From positions 1-33,716 of IMG/VR virus record IMGVR_UViG_3300018080_008439: a DNA stretch of 33,716 nucleotides. One strand, given 5' to 3'. This DNA is from a virus. Every line of letters starts with the position of its first letter. Position 1 is the first letter of the stretch. Shown piece after piece: positions 3,456 to 32,464 of this stretch. The notes under the pieces were generated by a model that was not told the origin of the DNA, made no database searches, and saw only the letters and a program-made list of their open reading frames with translations. A program made the position numbers and the translations under genes.

Positions 3456-4223
3456 TTAAACCCCCATCAATTTCTTATTTTTTTTCTCTATCATTCTATT
3501 CAGGATCCAAATTACCCGGCCGCAGACTGGAGATATATCTTCTTCTTCATATTCCTTAAGATTTAAAACCATAGGAAAATCTTTGAGATCTTCAGACTTG
3601 CGGTCTTCTAGGTTTTTATTATCACCATCGATGATAAAAAAATGCCTGTCTATCTTAGTTAGTCGTTTGATAGTGACAGAATTTGATAAATCTTTTAAAA
3701 GAAAGGCGTATATTTCCCCTTCTTTAGGGATAACATCCATCCTATCAATCCAAATAATGGATCCATCATTAATAGTAGGTTTCATTGAGATCCCTTCTGT
3801 CTCAAAGGCGACTATTCTATCAGGATCGCTTTTATAACCTTTAGGCAAAAGTTTTTTAGATAGCGGAATATAATCTTTTGGTGGGAGCTCATTGATCTCA
3901 TGACCTGGTCCAAGACTAATTGTGTCTTCAAATAGTTTTATTCCTTCAAAATCTCCTTTAGGCTGATTAAACTCGAGTTTAGGTTTGGTTGATTTATAGG
4001 GGACAAGAGGTTTTTCAGATAATAATTCATAAGTCGAAATCCCTAAGGCTTTTGCGATATCAATTAATTTTGATATAGAAGTATTGGAAAATCCGTTTTC
4101 TATTTTATATATCGCTGACTGTCCTATATTAACTCGATTTGCCAATTCAGATTGGGAGAGTCCTTTTTGGGCCCGATAATGTCGAATCCTAGTCCCAACA
4201 TCTTTTAGATTCATTATATACAT
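3456..4223 (-). CDS. CI-like prophage repressor (XRE helix-turn-helix plus S24 peptidase-like domain)
   Basis: The 255-residue product joins an N-terminal XRE-type DNA-binding domain (about 8-65, with the helix-turn-helix near QSELANRVNIGQSAIYKIE) to a LexA/CI-type S24 domain (about 95-240). The catalytic serine is Ser146 in EGISMKPT and the likely lysine is Lys186 in VTIKRL. The usual Ala-Gly self-cleavage pair appears as Leu104-Gly105 (ISLGPG), so self-cleavage may be altered. The start at 4223 has GGGGAA 8 nt upstream; an ATG at 4214 (MNLKDVG) is an alternative. The gene is divergent from the Cro-like gene across a 111-bp control region with palindromic sites, as expected for an autoregulated lysogeny repressor, and it heads the leftward cargo train. 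Confidence 0.93.
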   Translation of the reverse strand: MYIMNLKDVGTRIRHYRAQKGLSQSELANRVNIGQSAIYKIENGFSNTSISKLIDIAKALGISTYELLSEKPLVPYKSTKPKLEFNQPKGDFEGIKLFEDTISLGPGHEINELPPKDYIPLSKKLLPKGYKSDPDRIVAFETEGISMKPTINDGSIIWIDRMDVIPKEGEIYAFLLKDLSNSVTIKRLTKIDRHFFIIDGDNKNLEDRKSEDLKDFPMVLNLKEYEEEDISPVCGRVIWILNRMIEKKNKKLMGV

Positions 4224-4747: not shown

Positions 4748-5086
4748 ATGGCTGTCCATCTAAAAAGCGATAAGGGATTTACGTTCCAGAATCTTCTCTA
4801 CAGCAAGTTTATTCTTAAGCGTCATCATCGTGTCGAACCAGTGTCTGATTTGTTGAAGATACATAAGGATACCTTATACAGGAAAATCCGGGGGGATAGT
4901 GAGTTCCGGATTGATGAGCTGCCGGCATTACTCAATGCCACAAATGATATTGAATACATCAATTACCTTTTACGGGATACGAATTTTATTGCCATTCCAA
5001 AGCCAGACAAGCGTTTTGAGAAGATGCTATTTGAATTAGCCAAAAGCATGCTGGCGATTACAGGGAATGGCTTGGAGGAGGATTAA
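4748..5086 (+). CDS. CII-like phage regulatory protein
   Basis: From the ATG at 4748 the product has 112 residues. I prefer this start because AAAGGA lies 7 nt upstream; the ATG at 4724 has no close ribosome site. The pattern 'VEPVSDLLKIHKDTLYRKIRGDSEFRIDELPALLNATNDIEYINYLLRD' matches the phage regulatory CII family (P2-group type), a helix-turn-helix protein acting early in the lysis-lysogeny choice. It is third in the early operon, as expected for that role. Which promoter it controls is not visible. Confidence 0.72.
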   Translation: MAVHLKSDKGFTFQNLLYSKFILKRHHRVEPVSDLLKIHKDTLYRKIRGDSEFRIDELPALLNATNDIEYINYLLRDTNFIAIPKPDKRFEKMLFELAKSMLAITGNGLEED

Positions 5087-5133
5087 TGGAGAAAAAATAT
5101 CATTATTACAGAGGTAAAGGAGGAATAAGATGA
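5086..5133 (+). CDS. Possible 15-residue peptide, coupled on both sides
   Basis: An ATG overlaps the CII-like stop (TAATG) and has an excellent GGAGGAGG site upstream. The frame encodes MEKKYHYYRGKGGIR and its TGA overlaps the next start as ATGA. It may be a coupling peptide carrying translation into the next gene, or chance. The next gene has its own AAAGGAGG site inside this frame. Confidence 0.3.
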   Translation: MEKKYHYYRGKGGIR

Positions 5134-5312
5134 TCAACAAGGAGACTTTGGCAAAATTGTTAAAACTTAAATACTTCCCGGAATATCCCAAAAAAGAATG
5201 CAGAAAATTGGCAGAGCTGTTTATAAAGAGCGATTTTCCTATGAATGGGATAAAGACTTATGGTGAAGCATTTAAGTTTCTGGATTATGTACAAAGCATA
5301 AGGAGTAAGTAA
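5130..5312 (+). CDS. Small early protein, unknown
   Basis: The 60-residue product (MINKETLAKLLKLKYFPEYP...) follows an ideal AAAGGAGG ribosome site. It is helical and mildly basic with no recognised domain. Its position between the CII-like regulator and the recombination module is typical of small early accessory genes. The next gene starts 11 nt on. Confidence 0.6.
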   Translation: MINKETLAKLLKLKYFPEYPKKECRKLAELFIKSDFPMNGIKTYGEAFKFLDYVQSIRSK

Positions 5313-5323
5313 GGAGGGATTAA

Positions 5324-6229
5324 ATGAATGAAGAAAAATTAACCAATGGAGAAATTAAGGAAGACCATACGGAAACTAGAGACGAAATGCCGATGCTCAG
5401 CATTTCAAAAGAGATCGTTGATGTAGAAAGAGAGGTCCAGAAAGTAGAGAAGCAAATTGAGCTATTCAATAAGGTCAAAATTGTTTCTCTAAAACTCACC
5501 AAAGAAAAGGATTGGGTGTTTCAAGACGGGGATTCACCGTATCTTATGGATCGCGGAGCTGAAAACGTTGCCATCGCCTGGGGTATTAATATTCCCGGAA
5601 ACATTGAGCTGAAGATAGAGTGGCATGAAGATGAAAAAGGCCGATATTATGCTTTTGTGGCAAAAGGAAGCGCCTATTCAAAAAAACTGGATCGTTGGGT
5701 TTCTGATATTGGTGTATGTTCTCAGCGTGATAAATTCTTTGGAACCGTAGGCGGTAAACTAAAAGAGATCCATGATGTGGATATGGCCAATATTCGAAGA
5801 AAAGCAGTCACAAACCTTCATAGCCGGCTTATAAAGCGATGCGTGGGTTTGATGGGGGTTACCACAGAAGACCTTGTTGAAGCCGGACTCAATGTCAAAA
5901 AAATTCAGGGAATTGATTATAAGAAGAATAACCAAAAATCACGTTCCAGGCTCTCAGAAAAAGGAAAAGAAACACTCCAAAAATTAGGGGATATGCTTTT
6001 AATGATGGCGAATAACGATAAAAAGAGAGCAAAAGAGTTGCTGGTGAAATATTCATTATGGAAAGACAAAGAGGGGAAAGAGCATTACGCCGATTCACTC
6101 TCCAAGATGACAGAGAAATGGCTGAATACCACTTATGGAAAAGTCAAAAAAGAATTTGACCAAATCGGAAAAACTGAGGATGGGAAGCAGATAGATATGG
6201 ATGACAAAGAGGAGGAGAGCGGTGATTAA
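5324..6229 (+). CDS. Candidate phage recombination (DNA-annealing-like) protein
   Basis: The 301-residue product starts after AAGGAGG. It has an N-terminal coiled-coil part (about 25-55), a central conserved-looking part (about 65-195: DWVFQDGDSPYLMDRGAENV, then a beta-rich 'YYAFVAKGSAYSKKL', then 'DMANIRRKAVTNLHSRLIKRCVGLMG') and a charged tail. The 'IRRKA.TN....IKR..G' helix resembles proteins encoded next to phage PD-(D/E)xK nucleases. I infer a single-strand annealing or recombination partner because the next gene is a Cas4-like nuclease and the one after belongs to the same type of module; the sequence alone does not prove it. The stop overlaps the nuclease GTG start by 8 nt. Confidence 0.55.
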   Translation: MNEEKLTNGEIKEDHTETRDEMPMLSISKEIVDVEREVQKVEKQIELFNKVKIVSLKLTKEKDWVFQDGDSPYLMDRGAENVAIAWGINIPGNIELKIEWHEDEKGRYYAFVAKGSAYSKKLDRWVSDIGVCSQRDKFFGTVGGKLKEIHDVDMANIRRKAVTNLHSRLIKRCVGLMGVTTEDLVEAGLNVKKIQGIDYKKNNQKSRSRLSEKGKETLQKLGDMLLMMANNDKKRAKELLVKYSLWKDKEGKEHYADSLSKMTEKWLNTTYGKVKKEFDQIGKTEDGKQIDMDDKEEESGD

Positions 6230-7196
6230 TATCGTTGAAAAACTAGATCAAGAAACAGAAAAAAGGATTCAGCAATCACCAAGAAACTCTAATAGAAGCT
6301 CTGAGCTTGGGTGGTGGGAGGAATGCCCGCGTTATTTAGTATTGGTCAGGACAGATCCTGAAAAATTACCTCTTAATGATATAGCTCTCCAAAGGATATT
6401 TGATGAAGGCACAAGACAGGAAAAGCTTATTAGGCTAGAACTCGAAGAAGCCGGTTTTGAAGTCACAAACGTTCAGAGAGATGAAAAGTGGGCACATCTT
6501 AATATTTCTGGCCATATTGATGGCAAGATTCCGCTCAACGGAAAGACTCCAATCCTAGAAATAAAGAGTTGCTCTCCTAATGTATTTAGGACCATAAAAA
6601 AATACAAAGTAGCTGAAGACCTTAAAACTTCAAGATATTTCTGGATAAGACGTTATTACGCTCAAATGCAGGGTTATCATCTTTTGTTCAATGAGGAAGA
6701 AGGGATCATCCTTTTTAAAGATAAATCAACAGGACAAAAACATCAGATTGAATCCCATATTAATTATGACTACTGCGACAAGATGTGCTGGGTTATCGAA
6801 GAAGTGAATGACCGAGTAGAAAGAAATGATCCCTGGCCGGCAGAGACAAAAGAAGCCTGCAAGCGCTGTGGGTTTGCTCAAACGATTTGTTTTCCTGAAA
6901 AAGATTTTGGACCAGGATTTCAGATTTATTCCGATGACGAACTGGAAATCAAACTTAATCGGAGAGAAGAACTTAAGAAGGTAGCCAAAGAATATAAGGC
7001 CCTGGACAAAGAGCTCAAGAATGCTTTCAAAGGGGAAAACGCCATTGTTGGTGATTTTTTAATTGAGTCCACACCTTATGAAAGAAAATCTTACAAAGTG
7101 CCGAATGAGATAAAAGAGCAATATCTTGAAGTTAAGACTTATTACAGAGTAGATATCGAAAAATTAGGAGGGGGCAATGGAAGTACAACAGATTGA
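6222..7196 (+). CDS. Cas4/AddB-like PD-(D/E)xK exonuclease with predicted 4Fe-4S cluster
   Basis: I start this gene at the GTG at 6222, preceded by GGAGGAG; an ATG at 6201 lacks a ribosome site. The product has 324 residues. The nuclease core shows GHID (Asp100), ILEIKS (Glu113, Lys115) and YYAQMQGY (Gln150). One cysteine at 35 (ECPRY) and three near the C-terminal side of the core (CKRC at 213-216 and Cys223) reproduce the split four-cysteine iron-sulfur clasp of Cas4 and AddB nucleases. In phages such enzymes replace lambda exonuclease, resecting DNA ends for recombination with an annealing partner. The gene overlaps both neighbours, so the three genes likely act together. No cas genes are present, so this is not a CRISPR Cas4. 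Confidence 0.85.
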   Translation: MINIVEKLDQETEKRIQQSPRNSNRSSELGWWEECPRYLVLVRTDPEKLPLNDIALQRIFDEGTRQEKLIRLELEEAGFEVTNVQRDEKWAHLNISGHIDGKIPLNGKTPILEIKSCSPNVFRTIKKYKVAEDLKTSRYFWIRRYYAQMQGYHLLFNEEEGIILFKDKSTGQKHQIESHINYDYCDKMCWVIEEVNDRVERNDPWPAETKEACKRCGFAQTICFPEKDFGPGFQIYSDDELEIKLNRREELKKVAKEYKALDKELKNAFKGENAIVGDFLIESTPYERKSYKVPNEIKEQYLEVKTYYRVDIEKLGGGNGSTTD

Positions 7197-9589: not shown

Positions 9590-9766
9590 ATGAAAAAGCA
9601 ATATCAGGGATTTTTAATTAAAGAGGCCTTGATAGTGAAGTTAAAAGAAGGGAGAGAGCATAGACCACTGGCTCATTATGATAAATACCTAGGGGTCATA
9701 AAGGCGAAAAATAGAGAAGAAGCGAGGATAAAATTTATAGAAAGGGCAGGGGGAAGTGATGAATAA
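9590..9766 (+). CDS. Small basic protein, unknown
   Basis: The product has 58 residues from the ATG at 9590 (GGGGAG 11 nt upstream); a GTG at 9581 is a possible start but lies only 2 nt after that ribosome site. The sequence MKKQYQGFLIKEALIVKLKE... 'YLGVIKAKNREEARIKFIER' suggests a beta-beta-alpha unit. No family is recognised. The stop overlaps the start of the radical-SAM-like gene. Confidence 0.5.
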   Translation: MKKQYQGFLIKEALIVKLKEGREHRPLAHYDKYLGVIKAKNREEARIKFIERAGGSDE

Positions 9767-10466
9767 AGCTAATAAGAGTATTGGCTGGACAGATTATACC
9801 TGGAATCCGATAAAGGGACTATGCCCTGTTGGATGTTGGTACTGCTATGCTAGGAAGATTTATAAGCGGTTTTGTTTGGATGAGCATATAAGATTTGATT
9901 GGTACGAAATAAGTGACAAATTTGAACGTATGAGGAAACCGGCCAAAATATTTGTGTGTAGTACATTCGAGCTTTTCCATCCTCTTACATTAAAAAAATT
10001 AACATCTCATAACATGAACATGCAAGGCAAAACCTGGCGTAATGCTATTTTTAAAATTATAGAAAAGAACCCACAACATACATTCCAAATCCTGACCAAG
10101 ATGCCAGAGAATATTGATAGGGAAATGCCTGATAATGTCTGGTTGGGCTGTACGGTTACAGGAGAACCAAGAGAGATGGACAGGAATAAACTTGATGTCT
10201 TCGGAAACTCCAAAGCAAGAGTCAAGTTTGTGTCCTATGAGCCAATTTTGGGATACGTTCCTTTTGAAACATCCGATAAATTAGACTGGATGATTTTAGG
10301 GAGACTAACTGGATATGGGAAAAGGTTTGACCATAGAGTTCATTTAAACATGGACTTCATTAAAGAAATAATAAAGAGCTTTCGTAAAGAAGGTACAAAA
10401 ATATTTATAAAAAACAACCTCAAGGAAATATGGGGTGAAAAATTAATACAGGAGTGGCCAGAGTAA
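9759..10466 (+). CDS. DUF5131 (phage Gp37/Gp68) family radical-SAM-like protein
   Basis: The product has 235 residues from the ATG at 9759, after GGGGGAAG. It opens with 'SIGWTDYTWNPIKGLCPVGC', and the cysteines Cys22, Cys26 and Cys29 form CX3CX2C followed by YCYA, the iron-sulfur motif of radical SAM enzymes. 'FQILTKMPENI', 'NVWLGCTVT' and 'FVSYEPILG' are further hallmarks of DUF5131/Gp37-Gp68. This family is widespread in phages and prophages; its substrate is not established. It lies between small replication-region genes and a RusA-like resolvase, so a role in nucleic-acid modification is an inference. Confidence 0.88.
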   Translation: MNKANKSIGWTDYTWNPIKGLCPVGCWYCYARKIYKRFCLDEHIRFDWYEISDKFERMRKPAKIFVCSTFELFHPLTLKKLTSHNMNMQGKTWRNAIFKIIEKNPQHTFQILTKMPENIDREMPDNVWLGCTVTGEPREMDRNKLDVFGNSKARVKFVSYEPILGYVPFETSDKLDWMILGRLTGYGKRFDHRVHLNMDFIKEIIKSFRKEGTKIFIKNNLKEIWGEKLIQEWPE

Positions 10467-18655: not shown

Positions 18656-18668
18656 TGGAGGCATGAAA

Positions 18669-19457
18669 ATGGACAAGATAACAAAGACCTTGGAAAGCAC
18701 AGAAATCAAATCCATAGATGAGGAAACTCGAACCATATGGCATAAGATTTCTGTAGAGAATAAAGACTTGATGGGGGACATAGTCCGTATTGATGGCATA
18801 GATACCTCAAAGTTTAAAAAGAAGCCCGGCGTTATCTATGGCCATCGTTATTCCGGGATAGACCCTGTTCCTGTTATAGCAGAGAATGTGGGGTTCAAAA
18901 AGGAAGGGAAAGCTCTTTATGCCGGGACTAAATTCCTTGAAACAGATGGACTGTCACAGAAACTCAAGGACTTGGTTAATGACTTATGGATCCTGAATAA
19001 GAAAAAACTCATGGGATGGTCAATCGGATTTCAGCCCATAGAAACAGAGGAACTAAAAAATAAAGAAGGTGAATCAGAGGGGGGCATGGACTTTAAGAAG
19101 TCACTTCTTCTTGAATACTCCAATGTCATAATCCCGGCTAATCAGGATGCCATTAACGATGCTATTGAAGAAGGTGTTGTGTCTAAAGGACTAAAAACCA
19201 GCCTCAAGGACATACAAGATGAAGATGAGGTAATGGACAAGGAGATTGGGGAGATAGGCACAGATGATGATGAAATTCAGCTTCAGGAAACAGATCCGGT
19301 TGATGAACTTAAACCTGCCAAACCCAAAAAGGAAAGCACTCAGTCACAGGATGCTTTGTCATCCGATTTAATAAATGAGCTTCGAGAAATATTCGAGGCT
19401 TATAAATGCTTGCAAAGACAATTTAACAATTTCCTAAAACACTTTAAACGGAGGTAA
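18669..19457 (+). CDS. Prohead maturation protease, HK97 (S78) family
   Basis: The product has 262 residues from the ATG at 18669, with GGAGG 7 nt upstream (an ATG at 18663 lies 1 nt after it). The protease core (about 1-165) shows His59 in 'GVIYGHRYSG' and the catalytic Ser118 in 'LMGWSIGF', plus 'LLEYSNVIIPANQDA'. The tail (about 175-262) is acidic and then helical, possibly a scaffold segment. It removes the N-terminal delta/scaffold region of the capsid protein during prohead maturation. It is directly upstream of the capsid gene. Confidence 0.9.
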   Translation: MDKITKTLESTEIKSIDEETRTIWHKISVENKDLMGDIVRIDGIDTSKFKKKPGVIYGHRYSGIDPVPVIAENVGFKKEGKALYAGTKFLETDGLSQKLKDLVNDLWILNKKKLMGWSIGFQPIETEELKNKEGESEGGMDFKKSLLLEYSNVIIPANQDAINDAIEEGVVSKGLKTSLKDIQDEDEVMDKEIGEIGTDDDEIQLQETDPVDELKPAKPKKESTQSQDALSSDLINELREIFEAYKCLQRQFNNFLKHFKRR

Positions 19458-19461
19458 AAAT

Positions 19462-20829
19462 ATGGAACCGAAAGATAAAGACAAAAACAAAGACAAGAAT
19501 ACATCCAAAGATCAGGACATTAGAGATGATGTCAAAGGTCTTAAGGATGCCATTAAGGACCAGACAGAGCTTTTAGCTAAGCTAATCGCTGACCAGAAAG
19601 AAGATAAAAAAGAGGACCTCAAATCGAAAGACAGTAAAAAGGACAACAAAAAAGAACCGGTTCGAAGGCTTGAGTTGGTGGACAGCAGATCAAGAGATGT
19701 AAAAAACATCAAGCAGATTATGATCCTCCCTTCACGATATTTGAATGACCAGGAAAAAGAGCTGAGGGATTTTGCTGATGACATTTATATCATGGCCCAA
19801 GTTCTGGAAACGGATCCCCGGAATCTCAAGATGTGGCAGCGGTTTCAAGACTCTAGCTCTGCGCTTAAGAAAGCTATGGATACCGCAACCGCCGGAGAAG
19901 GTTCTGAATGGGTGCCTACCACTCTGAGCACAAATCTAATTGAGAGATACAGACTTATAGCCAGAGTACCGGCGCTGTTTGATGAGTTCCCCATGCCAGC
20001 TAATCCTTGGACACTGCCCACCAGTCTTGCTGATATGACTTTCTATTATATGCCTGAAAGCACAAGCGATGAACCAACCAAGACTCCTTCAACCAAACTG
20101 ACTACCGGCGACCTCACTATGACCGCCAAAAAGTTTAGGGCCAGAAGCATCTGGTCAGAGGAACTCAACGAGGAATCCATTATCGCTGTTCTTCCAAGAA
20201 TTAAAGAGAATATTGCCCGGTCAGCAGCCAGAGCTGTTGAAGATGCGATTATCAATGCCGATACCACAGCTACTCACCAGGATTCAGATGTGACCAACAG
20301 CAAGGACCACAGAAAAGTATGGAAGGGCCTAAGAAAGAATGCTATTGAGCAGAGCTACAGCGCTGATCTTTCCACATTCGATAAAGACACCACGCTGGCC
20401 AGAATCACAGCTATGGGGAAATATGGCATCAATGTAGATGACTTGGCCTGGATTGCCAGCACAGTATCTTATAACAAGCTAAGAGGATTGGCTGAACTGA
20501 GAACTGTTGATAAATACGGACCTAATGCCACTATTCTGACTGGTGAAGTTGGAAAACTTTATGGAATCCCTGTGATTGTGAGTGAGAAGCTGAGAAACGA
20601 TATGAACAATTCAGGTGTTTATGATGGAAGCACCACAGATAAGACAGGAATTTTGCTCGTCAATACCCGGATGTTTGCTCTTGGAAACAGAGGTGATTGG
20701 AGACTCACTGTTAAATTTGATGATGATGTTGACCAATACATTATGAACGTGCGGTTCAAAAAAGCCTTTATTCCACTTGATGATGTGAGCTCTGAACATA
20801 TCGTTGAGTATGGATACAAGATTAGCTAA
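19462..20829 (+). CDS. Major capsid protein, HK97 fold
   Basis: The 455-residue product starts after GGAGG. The first ~125 residues are lysine/aspartate-rich and coiled (DKDKNKDKNTSKDQD, then VKGLKDAIKDQTELLAKLIA), the expected scaffold (delta) domain removed by the upstream protease. The shell domain follows, with 'TATAGEGSEWVPTTLSTNLI', 'FRARSIWSEELNEESIIAVL', 'GIPVIVSEKL' and the late 'NRGDWRLTVKFDDDVDQYI'. No separate scaffolding gene is needed. It forms the icosahedral head. Confidence 0.93.
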   Translation: MEPKDKDKNKDKNTSKDQDIRDDVKGLKDAIKDQTELLAKLIADQKEDKKEDLKSKDSKKDNKKEPVRRLELVDSRSRDVKNIKQIMILPSRYLNDQEKELRDFADDIYIMAQVLETDPRNLKMWQRFQDSSSALKKAMDTATAGEGSEWVPTTLSTNLIERYRLIARVPALFDEFPMPANPWTLPTSLADMTFYYMPESTSDEPTKTPSTKLTTGDLTMTAKKFRARSIWSEELNEESIIAVLPRIKENIARSAARAVEDAIINADTTATHQDSDVTNSKDHRKVWKGLRKNAIEQSYSADLSTFDKDTTLARITAMGKYGINVDDLAWIASTVSYNKLRGLAELRTVDKYGPNATILTGEVGKLYGIPVIVSEKLRNDMNNSGVYDGSTTDKTGILLVNTRMFALGNRGDWRLTVKFDDDVDQYIMNVRFKKAFIPLDDVSSEHIVEYGYKIS

Positions 20830-23794: not shown

Positions 23795-24829
23795 ATGGGA
23801 GATATCGAAAAGAGACTCAATACGACAGCTTTCAAGAAAGCAAGTACCTGGGGAACTGAAGTTGACGTGGATGCAGCCGGTACCGGGATCCTTCCGCTCA
23901 ATCCAGGAGCCATAAAGCATGGGATAGTGGCGATAGAAGATAAAGCAGCCAGCGCATTTGAGCATGATCTGGATCAGGGCGATTTTGAAGCAGTAGATTT
24001 TGGCCTTGAATTTGACCTGCGTTATGAAGGTCTAGGCACATTGATTGCCATAATCATGGGGACTGCCGGAGCTCCTTCTCAACAGGAAGCAACTGATGCC
24101 TATCTGCATACACTTCAATTGGCCAATTCTATAGCTGGATTATTCGGGACATATGCCACTGAGAAAAAGGATAAAATCCACGTTGTTCCTTCAGTGAAGC
24201 CTTATAAGATAACCCTTGCTCCTGACAGCGGAAAGGTTAAAGCTACGATTAATTGCCTTGGAAACAAAGTCATTGATGATTCCTCTGTAATTACCGGGAT
24301 GACCAGTGTTACGGTTCCGGATCTTCATAATCGAACTCTAGCCAGACATGGTGTATTCAGAATGAATGCGCAAGATGGAGCTGCCCTTGGAAGCGGAGAT
24401 AAGATCAAGATTAAAGATTTCACCATTGAAATTGAACGTCGAAGTATGTCACAGCATTATGAATCAGAGAACCGTTCTATTATCGAACCCCTTGAGGAAG
24501 ATAAACCCTTAGTAAAAGTGACCCTAAATTTCAACCGGATGGATGATACCAATAAGGCTTATTTCAGCGATTGGAACTCTGAGAATGAAAAGAAAATGGA
24601 TATTGTGTTCACGGGTGCAGTTATTGAGGGAGCATACAGTTACTATCACAAACTACAGTTTCCAAGACTGAAGATTGAAGATGTGGATTATCCGGATGAT
24701 AACATCATTCCAGCCAGCATGGTATTAAGAGGGCTTCTTGCTGATGCAGCTCCTACCGGAATGGATGGAATCACCAAACCATTGCAGTGGGACATAATGA
24801 ACAAGAAAACCACTGATATGTTGGCATAA
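23795..24829 (+). CDS. Major tail tube protein
   Basis: The 344-residue product starts after GGAGG. 'FKKASTWGTEVDVDAAGTGI', 'FDLRYEGLGTLIAIIMGTAG', 'VKPYKITLAPDSGKVKAT' and 'ERRSMSQHYESENRSIIEPL' fit a siphophage tail tube protein, long enough to hold an extra beta domain. Repeats of it stack into the non-contractile tube. No sheath gene is present nearby, so the tail is siphovirus-like. It is followed by chaperones and tape measure, the universal order. Confidence 0.85.
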   Translation: MGDIEKRLNTTAFKKASTWGTEVDVDAAGTGILPLNPGAIKHGIVAIEDKAASAFEHDLDQGDFEAVDFGLEFDLRYEGLGTLIAIIMGTAGAPSQQEATDAYLHTLQLANSIAGLFGTYATEKKDKIHVVPSVKPYKITLAPDSGKVKATINCLGNKVIDDSSVITGMTSVTVPDLHNRTLARHGVFRMNAQDGAALGSGDKIKIKDFTIEIERRSMSQHYESENRSIIEPLEEDKPLVKVTLNFNRMDDTNKAYFSDWNSENEKKMDIVFTGAVIEGAYSYYHKLQFPRLKIEDVDYPDDNIIPASMVLRGLLADAAPTGMDGITKPLQWDIMNKKTTDMLA

Positions 24830-24842
24830 GGAGTGAGAGAAA

Positions 24843-25214
24843 GTGGCTGAACTTAAAAAGAAAATTCAACCGGTTTCTAATTGGGTGACCTTTAAGCTCA
24901 AGACAGATAAGCTCGAACCACCGGAAATCAAATTGAAACTGGCTCCTGTAAACCGTTACATCGAATCCACAACTATGGTCCAGAGAGCTGGCGCCACTAA
25001 ACGTATGACACAGGCTGTGGTAAATGCGATCCTTAATTCCATAGTGGACTGGGATATTACGGAGAATGGAGAGAAGATTGAGCTTACAGATGAGAACATC
25101 GCAGGGGTCATGATTCCTTTATTGGGTGAAGTAATCCAGGGCACCAAGAGAATGCTTCTAGGATTTAAGATTTTTGAATACATATCCAATGAGGAGAATT
25201 TCTTAAAAAATTAG
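24843..25214 (+). CDS. Tail assembly chaperone, G-like (zero-frame product)
   Basis: The 123-residue product starts at a GTG after AAGGAG. It is a helical, charged chaperone-like protein ('LAPVNRYIESTTMVQRAGAT', 'AILNSIVDWDITENGEKIEL') placed between tube and tape measure, the position of lambda gpG. It binds the tape measure protein during tail assembly. Its last codons hold a slippery A-AAA-AAT (25205-25211) immediately before the TAG, so a fraction of ribosomes should shift -1 and make the longer GT product. Confidence 0.85.
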   Translation: MAELKKKIQPVSNWVTFKLKTDKLEPPEIKLKLAPVNRYIESTTMVQRAGATKRMTQAVVNAILNSIVDWDITENGEKIELTDENIAGVMIPLLGEVIQGTKRMLLGFKIFEYISNEENFLKN

Positions 25215-25276
25215 AAACCTATCTATGCTATTACCGCGAGGTCCGCAACCTCCTTACAGCCGAGCATAGCCATAGG
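25205..25276 (+). promoter_or_regulatory. Programmed -1 frameshift signal (slippery site and stem-loop)
   Basis: The heptamer A AAA AAT lies at 25205-25211 in the zero frame, just before the TAG at 25212-25214. A 6-nt spacer leads to a strong stem: CCTAT (25218-25222) with ATAGG (25272-25276) and CTATGCT (25223-25229) with AGCATAG (25263-25269), a 2-nt bulge between. Inside is a second hairpin GAGGT (25238-25242) with ACCTC (25248-25252). Slippery site, spacing and stem match the requirements for -1 frameshifting. Confidence 0.9.
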
Positions 25277-25558
25277 AGATACATCGAAGGCTGTGAAAAT
25301 TGCGAGGTGAACCGGAGATGGGAAAAGATGAGTGAGTTTGAACAGTTCGTTCATAACTGGTATTTCGAGAACGTCAATCTTTTTACCCTTGAGACCGGGA
25401 TGCTTTCAGAGCTTATTCGAGAGCTGGATCTGCAGGGAATCACAAAAAGACTTTTCCTCCGGGCTTGTAATCTTATCTATCAGTTTCAGAAATCCATAGA
25501 AAAAGAAATGATTGAGAAGGAAATAGAAAAACAGAAAAGAGAGGCCAAGAATGGCTGA
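25211..25558 (+). CDS. Tail assembly chaperone T segment, made as GT by -1 frameshift
   Basis: This reading frame has no credible start of its own: the only in-frame GTG (25307) lacks a ribosome site, and open coding extends upstream to the slip site. After a -1 shift at 25205-25211 the zero-frame protein continues as 'KLETYLCYYREVRNLLTAEH' then 'RRYIEGCENCEVNRRWEKMS' and onward, giving a 238-residue fusion. This repeats the conserved gpG/gpGT arrangement of long-tailed phages. The T part (115 residues) is helical with 'FEQFVHNWYFENVNLFTLET' and a coiled tail. It is thought to recruit tube subunits to the tape measure. An independent 83-residue gene from 25307 is the alternative. Confidence 0.85.
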   Translation, partial: LETYLCYYREVRNLLTAEHSHRRYIEGCENCEVNRRWEKMSEFEQFVHNWYFENVNLFTLETGMLSELIRELDLQGITKRLFLRACNLIYQFQKSIEKEMIEKEIEKQKREAKNG

Positions 25559-27557
25559 CATACGCTATGTAATTACAGCTGATTCAAAGGGCGCGGTGAA
25601 GTCTGTCCAGAAATTGGATAAGCAGATTGATAAGATGCCTCAGACTGCCAAAAAGGCAGAATCAGGGATGAAGAATCTTTGGCTCCAGGTAGGAGCTGGG
25701 ATAGCTGCAGCTCAAGGTGTTATCAGGGGCCTTAAAGGTCTGATTCGGTTTATGGGCGATACAATTGACAAGGCCAAAGAACAGGAAAAAGCAGAGATAG
25801 CAATGGAAGCAGCTTTAAAAACTACAGGCAGAGAGATCACAAAAAACAGTGAACATTACAGGCGTTATGCCTCATCTATTCAGAAAGTCACTATGTTTGG
25901 GGATGAAGAGATACTTAAATCCCAGGCACTATTATTGCAGCTTACAGATTTAAGAAAAGATGGAATAGACAAGGCCACTGAAGCTGCTGTGGGGCTAGCC
26001 ACAGTCTATGACCAGGATTTATCCGCTGCCACTGTGCTGGTTGGTAAAGCCCTTGCCGGTAATTTTGGGGCCTTGAGCCGGTACGGGATCCAGGTTGATA
26101 AGAATTTATCTGCTTCTGAAAAACAGGTCTCATTATTAGAGCAGTTGGGTGTTATGTACGGCCGGGCCAAAGAAGAAACATTATCTTTTGCCGGGATTCA
26201 GAAGCAATTGACTAATCTCTGGGGAGATATGCAGGAACAGTTAGGGGAAGCTGTTACAGAGAGTAAAGAACTCAGGATGCAGATGTTTCTTTTTAAAGAA
26301 ACAATGCAAGCTATTGTTGATAGTGGGGTTATTTCTGATTTTGCTAAATCATTAGAAAATATTTCTAATTATGTTCCTATTTTAAAAATGCTCAAGGGAA
26401 GCATGGCTCTTATTAGTACAGAAATTATTGAAATGGCCATAGCAGAAAAAAATCTCCGGGAAGCCACAGATAATGCCATGCAATCTGTAGAAGGCCTGGC
26501 CGGATGGGCAAAAACATTAGGGTTGAATATAGATGGAATAGTTCCTTTTTTTGAAGATTTAGAAGGAGCGGAAGACGGTGCAGCAGGCAAAGGTGATAAG
26601 TTGGCTGGGACCATTTCTAAAATAAATACTGAAATAAAAAAACTCCCTACACCAATGGAGATTATGGAAGAGGCATTCGAAGATACTAATGACGTAATAG
26701 AGGAAGCTGAACTTCAATTTGAAGATTTTGGTGAGACAGGAGGAGATGTTATACAAGGCCTTCTGACTGATGTGGAAACAGTTAAGCCGGCTATGCAAGA
26801 ACATATGGCCCAACTTATTTCAAGCTGGACTTATCAATGGAAATTATTCAGTCAACAGGCAAAACAGGTCTGGTTCGAAATCGCTCAATGGGCTAATTAT
26901 GCTATCGGGAGCGTCAATGCCTCCTTTAACCAGATGCACACCAATGAAATGATCCGAATCGACAACGAACAAAAGAAAAGACAATCAGCTATTGATACCT
27001 GGTATGAACAGCAGAAGCAGGCCATTATGAACAACATAACAGATGAAACAGAGAGAGAAGCTGCTCTTGAAAAACTAGAGGAAGAAAGGCGTGCTAAAGA
27101 AGCAGCTCTGCAAGAACAAATGGAAGCTAAGAGAAAAGCAGCTAAAAGGGCGCAGGCGAAAAGAGATAAGGCTGTAGCTTTGATGCAGGCCATAGTCAAT
27201 ACAGCATCAGCAGTGGTAGAGGCTCTGCCGAATTTAATTCTGGCTGGTATTGTGGGGGCTATGGGAGCTGCGCAAATCGCATTAATCGCATCACAGCCAA
27301 TACCCCTGGCCAAAGGTGGAATCATAGATAGGCCGACTTTTCTTGCCGGTGAAGCAGGGAAAGAGGCTGTCATACCACTTGAGAGTTCTAGGGGGAAAGA
27401 CATCATAAGAGAAACTTTCAGGGAAACAAATAGGCCGATTTACATAACAGTTCAAAATAAAATTGATGAAAACTGGTTTCGGAAAAAGGTCACAAAGATT
27501 ATAGAGCAGGAAAGTAAACTAGGCCGGCTTAAAATTAATCCAAAGGCAGTGCATTAA
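25551..27557 (+). CDS. Tape measure protein
   Basis: The 668-residue product is largely helical, with hydrophobic stretches near 45-70 (VGAGIAAAQGVIRGLKGLI) and about 543-582, a coiled coil about 465-545 (EEERRAKEAALQEQMEAKRK), and the typical end 'PLAKGGIIDRPTFLAGEAGK' followed by EAVIPLE. The tape measure sets tail length and is ejected with the DNA. At the known rule of about 0.15 nm per residue the tail would be near 100 nm. There is no lytic domain. It overlaps the T segment by 8 nt with GAGG upstream. Confidence 0.9.
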   Translation: MADIRYVITADSKGAVKSVQKLDKQIDKMPQTAKKAESGMKNLWLQVGAGIAAAQGVIRGLKGLIRFMGDTIDKAKEQEKAEIAMEAALKTTGREITKNSEHYRRYASSIQKVTMFGDEEILKSQALLLQLTDLRKDGIDKATEAAVGLATVYDQDLSAATVLVGKALAGNFGALSRYGIQVDKNLSASEKQVSLLEQLGVMYGRAKEETLSFAGIQKQLTNLWGDMQEQLGEAVTESKELRMQMFLFKETMQAIVDSGVISDFAKSLENISNYVPILKMLKGSMALISTEIIEMAIAEKNLREATDNAMQSVEGLAGWAKTLGLNIDGIVPFFEDLEGAEDGAAGKGDKLAGTISKINTEIKKLPTPMEIMEEAFEDTNDVIEEAELQFEDFGETGGDVIQGLLTDVETVKPAMQEHMAQLISSWTYQWKLFSQQAKQVWFEIAQWANYAIGSVNASFNQMHTNEMIRIDNEQKKRQSAIDTWYEQQKQAIMNNITDETEREAALEKLEEERRAKEAALQEQMEAKRKAAKRAQAKRDKAVALMQAIVNTASAVVEALPNLILAGIVGAMGAAQIALIASQPIPLAKGGIIDRPTFLAGEAGKEAVIPLESSRGKDIIRETFRETNRPIYITVQNKIDENWFRKKVTKIIEQESKLGRLKINPKAVH

Positions 27558-28654
27558 TGGAAAAAACCCGTATTGTATATAAAAATTACTGGAGGGATGG
27601 TAATATATTCGATTATTCATCCCAGCATCCCCAGCATCCGGCCATAGACTCTCAACTGGATACATTATTGCAATTTTACAGGAGCCGATATGGAACAGGA
27701 TCCGGCAATGGGCTCTTTGTCATAGACTCAAGCAATAAGTATATTGATTTTGATGAGGGCGGTGCAGAAATGACTGCTGTCCTCACTGAAGGCACTTATA
27801 ATGGAAACTCCCTTGCAGCAGAGGTCCAAACCCAATTAAATGCACAGAGCGGTGGATTCACTGCTTCTTATTCGGAAACAGATGCAAGATTTACTATTTC
27901 AGACAGCGGTGCTTTTACCCTGCGGTGGAATACCGGAACAAACAGCGCGAACAGTGCTGGCTCCACTTTAGGTTTTGATGTATCTGCAGATGACAGTGGA
28001 TCCAGTTCTTATGAATCGGATTATAGACGGATCCATTATCCGGCTTGTTATGCTTCCAATAATTTAAGTGGAGCCTACAGCATAGATTTTATTGCCATCC
28101 TGAACCATAACATATCCAGTTCAGCAACCATCAAAGCCATAGGAGCTGATGATGAAGATTTCACAACCAATAAGGTTGAGGAAATTGTTACTTATAATGA
28201 GAATGATATATTTTATTTCTTTGATTCTGCTGAAACAAAACAGTACTGGAAAATAGAAATCCAGGATCCTGCCAATCCCAATTCTTATATCCAATATGGT
28301 CATATATTATTAGGGACTTACACAGAGTTAAATAAAGCTTATGGCAAGGACCATGAAGACGGTCCAGAAGATAGAAGTGAAGAAGAATACTCCAGTTCTC
28401 TTGTTCTTTATGGAGAGAAAAAAGAATCTTTACAGACCTGGACACTTCCATATATCGGGCTTAATGATGCTTCAAAAAGCTACATAAAAGATATGCTTGA
28501 GGAAGTAGGCAGGGTTAAATCTTGGATTATCTGTTTTGATTACACTAGCCCTAACAGTAATTCTTATTATGTGAGAAACGCAGAAATCATCAAGCCTCAA
28601 TATAAGCACGTAGACAATTGGAATTGGACTGCCAGTATTATTGAGGTGTTGTAG
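27557..28654 (+). CDS. Distal tail-like protein with inserted beta domain
   Basis: The 365-residue product starts in a TAATG overlap with the tape measure stop. It follows the tape measure, the place of distal tail proteins. About residues 53-156 are an extra domain ('FVIDSSNKYIDFDEGGAEMT', 'EGTYNGNSLAAEVQTQLNAQ', 'DARFTISDSGAFTLRWNTGT'), a module common in phage structural proteins. The rest holds 'SIDFIAILNHNISSSATIKA', 'YWKIEIQDPANPNSYIQYGH' and the last strands 'WNWTASIIEVL', which fit a jellyroll-like tail-tip protein. Probable role: the ring joining tail tube and tip. Confidence 0.7.
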   Translation: MEKTRIVYKNYWRDGNIFDYSSQHPQHPAIDSQLDTLLQFYRSRYGTGSGNGLFVIDSSNKYIDFDEGGAEMTAVLTEGTYNGNSLAAEVQTQLNAQSGGFTASYSETDARFTISDSGAFTLRWNTGTNSANSAGSTLGFDVSADDSGSSSYESDYRRIHYPACYASNNLSGAYSIDFIAILNHNISSSATIKAIGADDEDFTTNKVEEIVTYNENDIFYFFDSAETKQYWKIEIQDPANPNSYIQYGHILLGTYTELNKAYGKDHEDGPEDRSEEEYSSSLVLYGEKKESLQTWTLPYIGLNDASKSYIKDMLEEVGRVKSWIICFDYTSPNSNSYYVRNAEIIKPQYKHVDNWNWTASIIEVL

Positions 28655-31600
28655 ATGGCAATTCTTAACCCTCCAACTGGTTTATCTGTATCTGCGATTG
28701 TCGGCGGCTCCATGCAGCTTCTTTGGACCAACAATGATTCCTATTACAGTATCGAGATCTGGAGAGCCAAAGATTACAATTCAGGGTATTCTAAGATAGA
28801 TACAATCGGGGGAGGAAATGAGTCTTATATTGACTCTGGCCTTATAGATGGAACTAGATACTATTATTTTGTAAGAGCCTACATTAAAGGGGATTACGGG
28901 GATTCTAATTATGACTATGATACAACTGATCTCCCGGCTCCCAGCAATCTTAATGCCACTGTCCAGAATCCCAACAAAATAAAACTGACGTGGAACAATA
29001 ACAGTTCGGTTTACAGCTATATAAAGATTGAAAGAAAACAGACTTGTCCGGGAACCGGGAGCTGGAGCCAGATTAATAAAATATCGGGTGGCAGTACTGT
29101 ATATTATGATAATTCTGTAATAGATGGGAGAACCTATCAATACCGGGTAAGGGCTGAAAAGGATCCTCATGATGTTCATTCTAATTATTCGAATACAGAT
29201 TCAGGTACAACAGGGCTCAAGGCTCCCACCAATCTATCAGGCACGTCTGGGGGAGAGGGAACTTATGTAGATTTAGAGTGGTATGACAATTCACAGACAG
29301 AAAATGGTTATGAAATATATCGAAATGGAAGTAAGGTCCATACTACAGGAGCTAATGCCACATCATGGAGAGATACTGGAGTAAATCCTAAAACAACTTA
29401 TCATTATAAAGTCAGGGCTATTGGTCCATGTAATAACAGCGGTTATACTGATGAAATTGAAGTTTATACTGGAGCTCCTCCAAATGCCCCATCCAATCTC
29501 ACTGCAGAGGTGATTTCAAGCTCTCAAATCAATTTAGCCTGGCAGGACAATTCAGGAGATGAAACTGGTTTTAAAATTGAAGAAAAAGTTGGAGATGGCT
29601 CTTTCAGCCAAATCGATACGGTTGGAAAGAATGTAACATCATATCAAAGAACCGGACTTTCTCCTGGGACTCAATATACCTATCGGGTAAGAGCTTATAA
29701 CGCTTCCGGGAATTCAGGTTATTCGAATGAAGCCGGAGGGACAACACACAGCAATATAGAACCCCCAACAAATTTAGAAGCTACTCCGGTATCTGATACA
29801 GAGATAGAAATAACTTTTAAAGACAATTCTCTTGAAGAAGACAGCCATCATATTGAAAGAAAATTAACTGGAGGGAGTTATTCAGAGGTCAAAGTTTTGG
29901 AGCCTAATCGAACTTATTGGAAGGACAGCCTGAATCAAATTCTCAATGGCAGTTTTGAAAATTGGTCAAGTGGAGATAATTCTGATCCTGATTCTTGGAC
30001 TTCATGGTCAAGCGGTATGACTCATTCTATAGCGAAAGAATTCGATTATGTAAAATTGGGGAATTTTTCAGCTAAATTAACTAGAAATGGAGCTAATTGT
30101 GTTTTGAACCAAGATATTCATGAGGATGAAGGCATTTCATATTGGCAGGAAAAGACTGTTATGTTTCAATGCTGGGTTAAATGCAATACTGCATCTTCTG
30201 CAAGAATCTTGATTAATGATGGAGTTTTAAGCGTCTCTTCTGATTATCATAGCGGAAATAATAGCTGGGAACTCTTAACAGTTTCTAAAACTATTGATGC
30301 CAATGCAACTATGGTCAGAGTTGTTTGTCAAATAGTGAATAATGATGTATCTGCGTATTTTGATGGTGCATTATCTGTAGGTTCTGGAGATACATATTAT
30401 TATAGAGTCCGAGCAAAACAAGGAGCTAATTACTCAAATTACTCTAATGAAGCATCCGCGACAATTATCCAGGAACCCTCTGCTCCAACTAGCCTTCAGG
30501 CAACAGCAGAATCAGACGAAAAAATCAGGTTAAACTGGACAGGTGTGGATAAAGAAACTGGTTATAAGATAGAACAATCCAATGATCAAGGTTCAGACTG
30601 GTCAGAGATCGCAGTCATAGGAGCGGACATAGAAAATTTCCTTGTCACAGGGTTAAATCCAAACACAAGATATGATTTTAGGATTTGGGCTTATAATGCA
30701 GCTGGGAACTCTGGCTACAGCAATGAAGCTCATGCCACTACTAATGAGATTTACACAAGAACAGAATTTGAAAAGTTTATGCGGAACCCCAATGCTAAAC
30801 CTGTTTTTCTGGCTGAAATCAATCCCAAAATGCAGCTCACAGGATTAAGCCTGGTTAGCGGAAAGACCTATACCTATGAATATGAGATTACAGACAGGGG
30901 TATTGATATTGAGGCAGTCTATGAGAACGGAGTGGCTTATTCAGAAGTATCCTCTATCATATCAGTAGAAAATTCTGCCTCAACTTTCTATTGCGATTAT
31001 TATAACCGCAAGTTGTATATCCATACTTCGGATGGAACAGAACCGGATAATTTTTATCTAGAAGCCTCTTTCTTGCTCTATTTTTCGAGTTATCAGACGA
31101 AAACAGGAACTATTATTTATAATGGAAATTATTATTTTCCCTACCTTGATTTAGAAAATATCCCTGACATTTCTTCAGAAATCAAACGACTCTATGAAGG
31201 AAATATCAGTTTGTCATCCGGAAATTTGGTGGTAAGAAACGCCAGGCAGGGGGATGGAACTTTCTTTTTTGACAGAAAATTTGAAAAGTATATCTGGAGG
31301 AATCGGAAAGTTCGGCTGAAAGCCGGGAAGAAGGATTTCAATTATACGAATTTTCAAACAATTTACACAGGGTTAATTGAAGATGTTGTCTGTGAAGACA
31401 GGCAGATATCTTTTTCCTTGGTTGATATAAGAGAAGGGATCTGGAGGAATTTGCCGATTAATAAACTCTGGCAGAGCAATTATCCTGATTTACCGGATGA
31501 AGAACAAGGGGTGCCGATTCCAGTATTATTTGGCAGCATTCAAAATGCTCCTATGGTCTGCATAGATTCTGCCAATAAAAAATATAAATTTCATGATGGC

Positions 31601-32464
31601 AGGGTAAAAAGCGTTACAGAAGTAAGGGATAAAGATGGTAATGCTTTGACTGAAAATACAGATTATTATGTAGATCTGCAAAATGCAGTCATAACTTTCG
31701 ACCGGGATAATTATGCTATTGGGGATGATGATTTCTTTATTATTGACTTTGAAGGAATTCCGGATTCAGCAAATAATCTTATTCAGAATGGAGCTGAAGT
31801 ATTCAAATATATTTATAACACCTACCTAGAATTGGAAAATTCAGAACTGGATTTAGATTCTATTTATCAAACTAAATACGAAAAGGAAAAAAACCTCAAT
31901 ATATTCATGTATCTTCAGAAAAGCTCCAACACATATATCCGGGAAATAGAACACTCTCTTGAAGCATACTCTTTCCAAGATGAGGAAGGAAGGATCGGGC
32001 TCCGGACTTTTGGATCTACAGCTCCTTCAGATGCCAAATATATTGCGAATCATCAAATCTTTGATTACTCACAGGAAAAAAAGAAAAAAGATATCTTGTA
32101 TAAAGTCAATATATTCTATAACGAAAATCCCCAAAATCAATCCTGGGAGGTTAAATCTTTTTTCTCTAATCCCGTTAAATGGGGATTCCATATTTATGAA
32201 GATATTGATATCTATACCAGGCTTACTACTGAATCAGAAGTCGATACTCTTGGTGGAAATATTCTAGGTTTATTAAACAAGCCTACGATTAATTTTGCTG
32301 TCCATAATGTTCTGTATGGATGCAGTGCTGGGGATATAGTGCGATTAACCCGGAATCGATATTACAACAGCGATGGGTCAGCTTCAGAAAAACCTATAAG
32401 GATCCTTCAGATTGATAAAAGCTATTCATCTGGAAAAACAACTATTATGGCAGAGGAAGTCTAA
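28655..32464 (+). CDS. Giant tail-tip protein with six FN3 domains, a nested carbohydrate-binding-like module and hub region
   Basis: The 1269-residue product has six fibronectin type III-like units: about 5-92, 93-187, 188-273, 275-365, 368-605 and 606-697, each with 'PT/SNL.A', 'L.W.D/N' and 'Y.YRVRA' signatures. Unit five is split: after 'YWKDSLN' (421-427) a ~145-residue insert runs from 'QILNGSFENWSSGDNSDPDS' to 'NNDVSAYFDGALSV', then the final strands 'TYYYRVRAKQGANYSNYSNE' resume. The insert resembles a family 4/9-type carbohydrate-binding module. Residues about 700-1269 form a hub-like part ('AKPVFLAEINPKMQLTG', 'GCSAGDIVRLTRNRYYNSDG'). Placed after the distal tail gene, it probably binds the host surface and opens the tail. 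Confidence 0.8.
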   Translation: MAILNPPTGLSVSAIVGGSMQLLWTNNDSYYSIEIWRAKDYNSGYSKIDTIGGGNESYIDSGLIDGTRYYYFVRAYIKGDYGDSNYDYDTTDLPAPSNLNATVQNPNKIKLTWNNNSSVYSYIKIERKQTCPGTGSWSQINKISGGSTVYYDNSVIDGRTYQYRVRAEKDPHDVHSNYSNTDSGTTGLKAPTNLSGTSGGEGTYVDLEWYDNSQTENGYEIYRNGSKVHTTGANATSWRDTGVNPKTTYHYKVRAIGPCNNSGYTDEIEVYTGAPPNAPSNLTAEVISSSQINLAWQDNSGDETGFKIEEKVGDGSFSQIDTVGKNVTSYQRTGLSPGTQYTYRVRAYNASGNSGYSNEAGGTTHSNIEPPTNLEATPVSDTEIEITFKDNSLEEDSHHIERKLTGGSYSEVKVLEPNRTYWKDSLNQILNGSFENWSSGDNSDPDSWTSWSSGMTHSIAKEFDYVKLGNFSAKLTRNGANCVLNQDIHEDEGISYWQEKTVMFQCWVKCNTASSARILINDGVLSVSSDYHSGNNSWELLTVSKTIDANATMVRVVCQIVNNDVSAYFDGALSVGSGDTYYYRVRAKQGANYSNYSNEASATIIQEPSAPTSLQATAESDEKIRLNWTGVDKETGYKIEQSNDQGSDWSEIAVIGADIENFLVTGLNPNTRYDFRIWAYNAAGNSGYSNEAHATTNEIYTRTEFEKFMRNPNAKPVFLAEINPKMQLTGLSLVSGKTYTYEYEITDRGIDIEAVYENGVAYSEVSSIISVENSASTFYCDYYNRKLYIHTSDGTEPDNFYLEASFLLYFSSYQTKTGTIIYNGNYYFPYLDLENIPDISSEIKRLYEGNISLSSGNLVVRNARQGDGTFFFDRKFEKYIWRNRKVRLKAGKKDFNYTNFQTIYTGLIEDVVCEDRQISFSLVDIREGIWRNLPINKLWQSNYPDLPDEEQGVPIPVLFGSIQNAPMVCIDSANKKYKFHDGRVKSVTEVRDKDGNALTENTDYYVDLQNAVITFDRDNYAIGDDDFFIIDFEGIPDSANNLIQNGAEVFKYIYNTYLELENSELDLDSIYQTKYEKEKNLNIFMYLQKSSNTYIREIEHSLEAYSFQDEEGRIGLRTFGSTAPSDAKYIANHQIFDYSQEKKKKDILYKVNIFYNENPQNQSWEVKSFFSNPVKWGFHIYEDIDIYTRLTTESEVDTLGGNILGLLNKPTINFAVHNVLYGCSAGDIVRLTRNRYYNSDGSASEKPIRILQIDKSYSSGKTTIMAEEV

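Follow-up and report, generated by a model that had tools for sequence, protein, structure and literature searches.

The window analyzed here, IMG/VR record IMGVR_UViG_3300018080_008439, is an AT-rich stretch of 33,716 nt in which two overlapping reading frames in a -1 relationship lie directly between a tail tube gene and a tape measure gene, the former assigned by synteny and relatives only. The putative major tail tube protein (positions 23795 to 24829, plus strand, as are all the features of this junction) has 344 aa and is 53 to 64% identical to syntenic proteins at six related loci; it gave no Pfam match, and its match to a PHROG tail protein was marginal (E value, 0.045). The first of the two frames, the zero frame (24843 to 25214), encodes a putative G-like tail assembly chaperone of 123 aa and begins with a GTG codon that is served by a strong Shine-Dalgarno (SD) sequence. 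The second is an open -1 frame (25211 to 25558) that would encode a T-like extension of 115 aa and is conserved from its first codon; its end overlaps the tape measure protein gene (25551 to 27557; PHROG tape measure match, E value 4e-12) by 8 nt. The same anatomy of zero frame and -1 frame, running from tail tube to tape measure, was found in the relatives.

The zero frame ends with ...GAG AAT TTC TTA AAA AAT TAG and therefore contains the slippery heptamer A_AAA_AAU (25205 to 25211), which is directly abutted by the zero-frame stop codon UAG (25212 to 25214). An SD-like AGGAG (25192 to 25196), an uncertain candidate for an upstream stimulator, lies 8 nt before the heptamer. On the other side, a 6-nt spacer (TAGAAA) leads to a stem whose 5' arm, CCUAUCUAUGCU (25218 to 25229), pairs with positions 25263 to 25269 and 25272 to 25276 of the 3' arm, AGCAUAG-CC-AUAGG (25263 to 25276); the resulting 12 bp are interrupted by a 2-nt bulge (25270 to 25271), and the loop holds an inner hairpin, GAGGU(CCGCA)ACCUC (25238 to 25252), that is specific to the window phage. 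A slip site and stem of this geometry had been proposed in a preliminary description of this DNA, and the minimum-energy fold was exactly the 12-bp bulged stem enclosing the inner hairpin. The same description had the -1 frame open to 25558 and a fusion product of 238 residues; we found the frame open from 25193 to 25558, and the two frames together predict that length (123 + 115).

The zero-frame product of the window had no chaperone match in PHROG or Pfam; however, the first frame of one relative matched PHROG 313, a tail assembly chaperone, with an E value of 0.028. Homologous first frames are present in the syntenic relatives. The AlphaFold model of the first frame (pLDDT, 81) showed weak similarity to tail assembly and tape-measure chaperones in Foldseek, with the HK97 structure 2OB9 at rank 5 among the PDB matches and no match below an E value of 0.001. 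The -1 extension was modeled as entirely helical (pLDDT, 94), and it had neither a sequence match nor a viral fold match. Between phages, the G and T frames share little sequence similarity (PMC5009743), so the absence of a match to known T domains is compatible with homology. In most members, a conserved H-x-H and C-x-x-C in the extension (25211 to 25306 in the window) suggest a metal site. Three loci (L101, L115, and L120) do not have this H-x-H ... C-x-x-C pattern, yet they have kept the RNA stem, with a loop that is 15 nt shorter.

The window contains 40 copies of AAAAAAT, compared to 36 expected; the heptamer alone means nothing statistically in this DNA. When a tight frame of 59 to 69 nt was folded, the stem was better than 199 of 200 shuffled sequences (z score, -2.8), and an arm-arm duplex as stable as that of the window was obtained in only 0.1% of 1000 synonymous recodings that kept the -1 protein. 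Folding of the 96-nt stretch proposed in the preliminary description also produced the expected structure, but with a z score of only -1.57, and 16 of the 200 shuffles were as good. It could be argued from the abundance of the heptamer in AT-rich DNA and from this weak 96-nt fold that coding produced both the heptamer and the stem by chance and that the -1 frame is an eroded or misassembled remnant. Since the 96-nt fold is weak and the heptamer is common in the window, the comparison with relatives had to decide the matter. The conservation in all close relatives, the covariation, and the recoding test reported below refute the argument from chance, to which we give practically no credence.

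Relatives were not reached directly, since neither chaperone frame, nor the tail tube, gave a match in viral contigs, genome contigs, or cultured phages when used as a single protein query. A search with the portal protein yielded two contigs, one of which contained a syntenic tail module, and profile searches built from a tail tube alignment returned further viral contigs, as well as two distant genome loci in Nitrospirota and Desulfobulbaceae assemblies. Among 50,697 cultured-phage records, there was no match to the tail tube or the chaperone frames, and the cultured phages with a related portal (about 26%) have a different tail module. Actinobacterial tail-tube matches (L012 to L019) were set aside as too remote. 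A -1-frame profile was also run against 395 + 396 genomes from the phyla of the two distant genome loci; the one weak match (L061) was judged to be due to chance. The detailed comparison of slip sites comprised 28 distinct loci, including the window. In several relatives (L005 and L006, around 4803 to 6510, and L038 to L052), tail-tube-like genes occur as a tandem pair, or the tail tube contains an inserted domain.

All 28 loci have the sequence [C/T/G]TA-AAA-AAY, that is, the heptamer A_AAA_AAY, followed immediately by a stop codon, which may be UAA, UAG, or UGA. The zero-frame C terminus at these loci is N-[FY]-[LV]-K-N or a near variant, and at the GC-rich loci CTA AAA is invariant though both codons are rare (A-ending Leu codons make up 2 to 12% of Leu codons in most of these loci, and AAA makes up about 14 to 40% of Lys codons). 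Three other relatives (L033, L035, and L036) carry T-TTT-TTC instead, with the stop codon 6 nt further on, and L091 has A-AAA-AAA followed by TAA. Given these substitutes, the heptamer is replaced in relatives only by other slippery heptamers. At the more remote junctions, the sequence is A AAA AAC (L010) or A AAA AAG TAA (L011). The distance from heptamer to stop was 0 nt in every A_AAA_AAY member found by homology, with the exception of the remote L010.

The slip site is also an A-run, and slippage of RNA polymerase on such runs, which is known in bacteria (PMC3711429), could deliver transcripts with an inserted or lost A. However, the run is exactly six A residues long in the 28 loci, below the length of >7 cited for transcriptional realignment (PMC3711429), and a stem placed 6 nt downstream would be superfluous for polymerase slippage, which also sits poorly with the T-TTT-TTC of L033, L035, and L036. 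We therefore regard it as a most improbable origin of the -1 product. At -9.4, the anti-SD duplex formed by the SD-like AGGAG of the window is stronger than any other at that phase in the G gene. Upstream anti-SD duplexes at or below -5 were found at 15 of the 28 loci, and the recoding test was not significant for individual loci. An upstream SD-like stimulator, attractive in the window, was rejected: roughly half of the loci have similar purine runs, which are largely explained by the P-E-N-F codons.

The -1 product could be aligned from its first residue across loci at which it is only about 27 to 43% identical to that of the window, and it has the conserved motif L-x-A-Y-L ... H-x-H-E-x-G-E ... 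C-x-N-C ... F-E ... W-Y. This conservation precedes any start codon. In 24 of the 27 loci assessed, including the window, there is no ATG, GTG, or TTG between the preceding stop codon and the slip site in the -1 frame, and the first possible start in the window's -1 frame is codon 33. Differences in the -1 frame were most frequent at third codon positions (0.51, versus 0.38 and 0.37 at the others). These comparisons show that the -1 frame codes for protein as soon as the slip site is passed. For the preliminary description, related phages with no open -1 frame at this position would have spoken against frameshifting; the frame is open in all close relatives with a contig that spans the junction.

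It had further been claimed that the downstream segment has no ribosome site of its own. That statement has to be withdrawn, since GGAG is found 10 nt before an ATG at 25328, codon 40 of the -1 frame, which would open an alternative, probably unused, internal frame (25328 to 25558). The anti-SD duplex at this ATG (-6.6 kcal/mol) is comparable to those of other genes in the window (-4.4 to -11.8 kcal/mol), and one could envisage two separate genes, the downstream protein arising from its own initiation, at ATG 25328 or GTG 25307, or from coupling. A distant relative adds to this argument: at L011 (9430 to 9580, from the Desulfobulbaceae assembly), the sequence AAAAAAGTAATGG comprises a slippery heptamer, a stop codon, and an overlapping -1-frame ATG, and for this reason both frameshifting and coupled re-initiation appear possible there. 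At the window, however, the 39 codons upstream of ATG 25328 are conserved as protein, and neither the position nor the strength of an internal start with an SD sequence is conserved between loci; at L041, the first 70 codons of the -1 frame have no start codon at all. Separate initiation also leaves the invariant heptamer and the stem unexplained, and we consider it very unlikely.

The stem provides a further line of evidence. In the relatives, the helix is formed by GCCTAYCTCG and CGAGRTAGGC, at the same distance from the heptamer as in the window. For this outer stem, 93.2% of the cells pair, and five pairs show double changes; none of 500 shuffles, which ignore relatedness, matched this pairing, and RNAalifold agreed. 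Sliding the partner by one to three columns reduced pairing to 33 to 50%. The compensatory changes include A-U to U-A at L005, L027, and L028 (Tyr to Phe with Val to Glu), C-G to G-C at L023 (synonymous Leu with Glu to Gln), and many exchanges of C-G and U-A. The chaperone protein tree has too little support for independent compensations to be counted formally, and because of this weakness few of them fall on supported branches.

In view of the weak tree and of covariation controls that ignore relatedness, the stem was tested a second time by recoding: the -1-frame protein of each locus was left unchanged while new codons were drawn according to the codon usage of that locus. The natural minimum free energy (MFE) was lower than the recoded mean at 27 of 27 loci (mean z score, -2.84), and the natural arm-arm duplex beat the recodings at P values of <0.05 at 25 of the 27 (mean z score, -3.5), with a P value of 0.001 for the window. 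In a third test, all viral contigs were searched for the heptamer, the stop codon, and the 5' arm, leaving the 3' arm out of the query. Ten loci not seen before were recovered. Five are clear chaperone junctions, with profile E values no higher than 6e-10, and in each of them the 3' arm is complementary at 10 of 10 positions; they fall into two groups by loop length, and the three loci with a loop shortened by 15 nt encode a -1 protein that has lost C-x-x-C. Complementarity was only 7 to 8 of 10 in four unrelated motif matches, and it was 8 of 10 at L099, possibly a more divergent junction. These tests show that the outer stem is under selection over and above the protein code.

The window's own copy is the odd member of this family. 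Its 3' arm is the only one of the 28 that lies outside the canonical columns; the 5' arm keeps CCUAUCU and pairs with an arm rebuilt a few bases upstream, in a helix extended to 12 bp. This departure from the canonical register counts against a frameshift signal at this locus. The signal had been described as unusually strong, but in energy the window has the weakest fold in the family (MFE of -18.0 kcal/mol, versus -22.9 to -42.5 kcal/mol in relatives). The nested two-hairpin element that had been put forward likewise fits only the window copy: in the 190 nt around the slip site, no other helix, inner hairpins and pseudoknot partners included, was paired at ≥80%, and the outer stem alone is conserved.

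Based on the invariant slip site, the covarying stem, the conservation of the -1 frame, the alternative heptamers, and the position of the junction, we conclude, with strong confidence, that the two chaperone frames are linked by a G/GT-type phage signal for programmed -1 ribosomal frameshifting, as the preliminary description had proposed. The layout is that of known -1 signals: an in-frame heptamer of the X_XXY_YYZ type, at which both tRNAs can re-pair in the -1 frame, and a stem whose 6-nt spacing lies within the 5 to 9 nt expected of a stimulatory structure. That ribosomes slip in the host, how often they do so, and which roles the chaperones have are what we infer from this arrangement. 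Most ribosomes would translate the short frame to the UAG at 25212 and release the 123-aa chaperone. While the heptamer sits in the ribosome, the stem 6 nt downstream would resist unwinding at the mRNA entry, and in a fraction of ribosomes the Lys and Asn tRNAs would re-pair one base back, assuming that AAU is decoded by the host tRNA-Asn. For Escherichia coli ribosomes, heptamers that end in AAU or AAC are less efficient than those that end in AAG. The slipped ribosomes would read ...F-L-K-N-L-E-T-Y-L... and produce a minority GT-like fusion of 238 aa. By analogy with lambda, the short form would coat the tape measure protein, the long form would also recruit the tail tube protein, and both would leave before the tail is finished.

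The -1 frameshift of lambda G/GT is conserved among long-tailed phages (Xu, Hendrix and Duda 2004, as cited in PMC5009743). Like lambda G/GT, the junction described here places a pair of chaperone frames after the tail tube gene and ahead of the tape measure gene, with a -1 slip shortly before the first frame ends and a second frame that overlaps the start of the tape measure gene, and the ratio of short to long product is presumably set by low-level frameshifting. Unlike lambda, in which the heptamer is GGGAAAG and lies 15 nt from the G stop, A_AAA_AAY lies 0 nt from the stop here, and a conserved outer stem begins 6 nt downstream. There was no detectable protein sequence similarity to the lambda proteins, and weak fold matches link the G domain and none the T domain. 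The junction is also reminiscent of dnaX: both have an A_AAA_AAN heptamer followed by a stem, and the upstream SD sequence of dnaX has a parallel in the window, where an SD-like AGGAG precedes the heptamer by 8 nt. However, the A_AAA_AAG shift of dnaX leads to a shorter product and the shift proposed here to a longer one, and the upstream SD sequence is not conserved beyond what coding explains.

The abutting stop codon sets these junctions apart from the published mean distances between heptamer and stop in phage chaperones, which are 26 and 36 nt (PMC10885494). A natural stop codon 3' of a slippery heptamer is found in RSV and BYDV, and in artificial HIV-1 constructs a stop intercodon lowered frameshifting, with release factors competing (PMC4373837). 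The direct apposition of stop and heptamer is shared with RSV and BYDV; however, those are eukaryotic viruses and the HIV-1 constructs are artificial, whereas the arrangement here is natural, bacterial, and conserved. The conserved stop may keep frameshifting at a low level or cause it to respond to termination. It is conceivable, although rather doubtful, that the stop is fixed after the heptamer and that part of the slippage takes place with the stop codon in the A site, in competition with the release factor. If so, the ratio of short to long chaperone would respond to the termination capacity of the host, and these phages would hold a natural bacterial stop-intercodon -1 frameshift. In any case, with their invariant abutting stop these junctions are a natural bacterial setting in which to ask whether -1 slippage can take place while a stop codon occupies the A site.

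The mechanism of frameshifting is known from other phages; what the comparison adds is a cassette conserved across a group of uncultured tailed phages. The whole cassette, and not merely the open frame, proves to be under selection in these phages, and paired codon changes across the stem tie the amino acid evolution of the chaperone to an RNA helix.

Several other features of the window and its relatives were observed. On the minus strand, an N6/N4 DNA methylase fused to an Mrr-type restriction endonuclease domain is encoded at 1499 to 3055, and a repressor with a helix-turn-helix and an S24 peptidase domain is encoded at 3456 to 4223; the latter suggests a temperate phage. A DUF5131 protein is encoded at 9756 to 10466. 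The window has one gene for the head protease and another for the major capsid protein (18663 to 20829), whereas in one relative (L002, 4746 to 6950) the two form a fused frame of 734 aa. A tail protein of 1,269 aa with several fibronectin type III domains is encoded at 28655 to 32464. In the protein encoded downstream of the tape measure gene (27557 to 28654), about 105 residues (54 to 155) are 46% identical (E value, 2e-28) to a domain, as in L043 (5330 to 6415), that is an insertion in the tail tube protein of many relatives; common to two different tail proteins of related phages, it is possibly a mobile surface domain.
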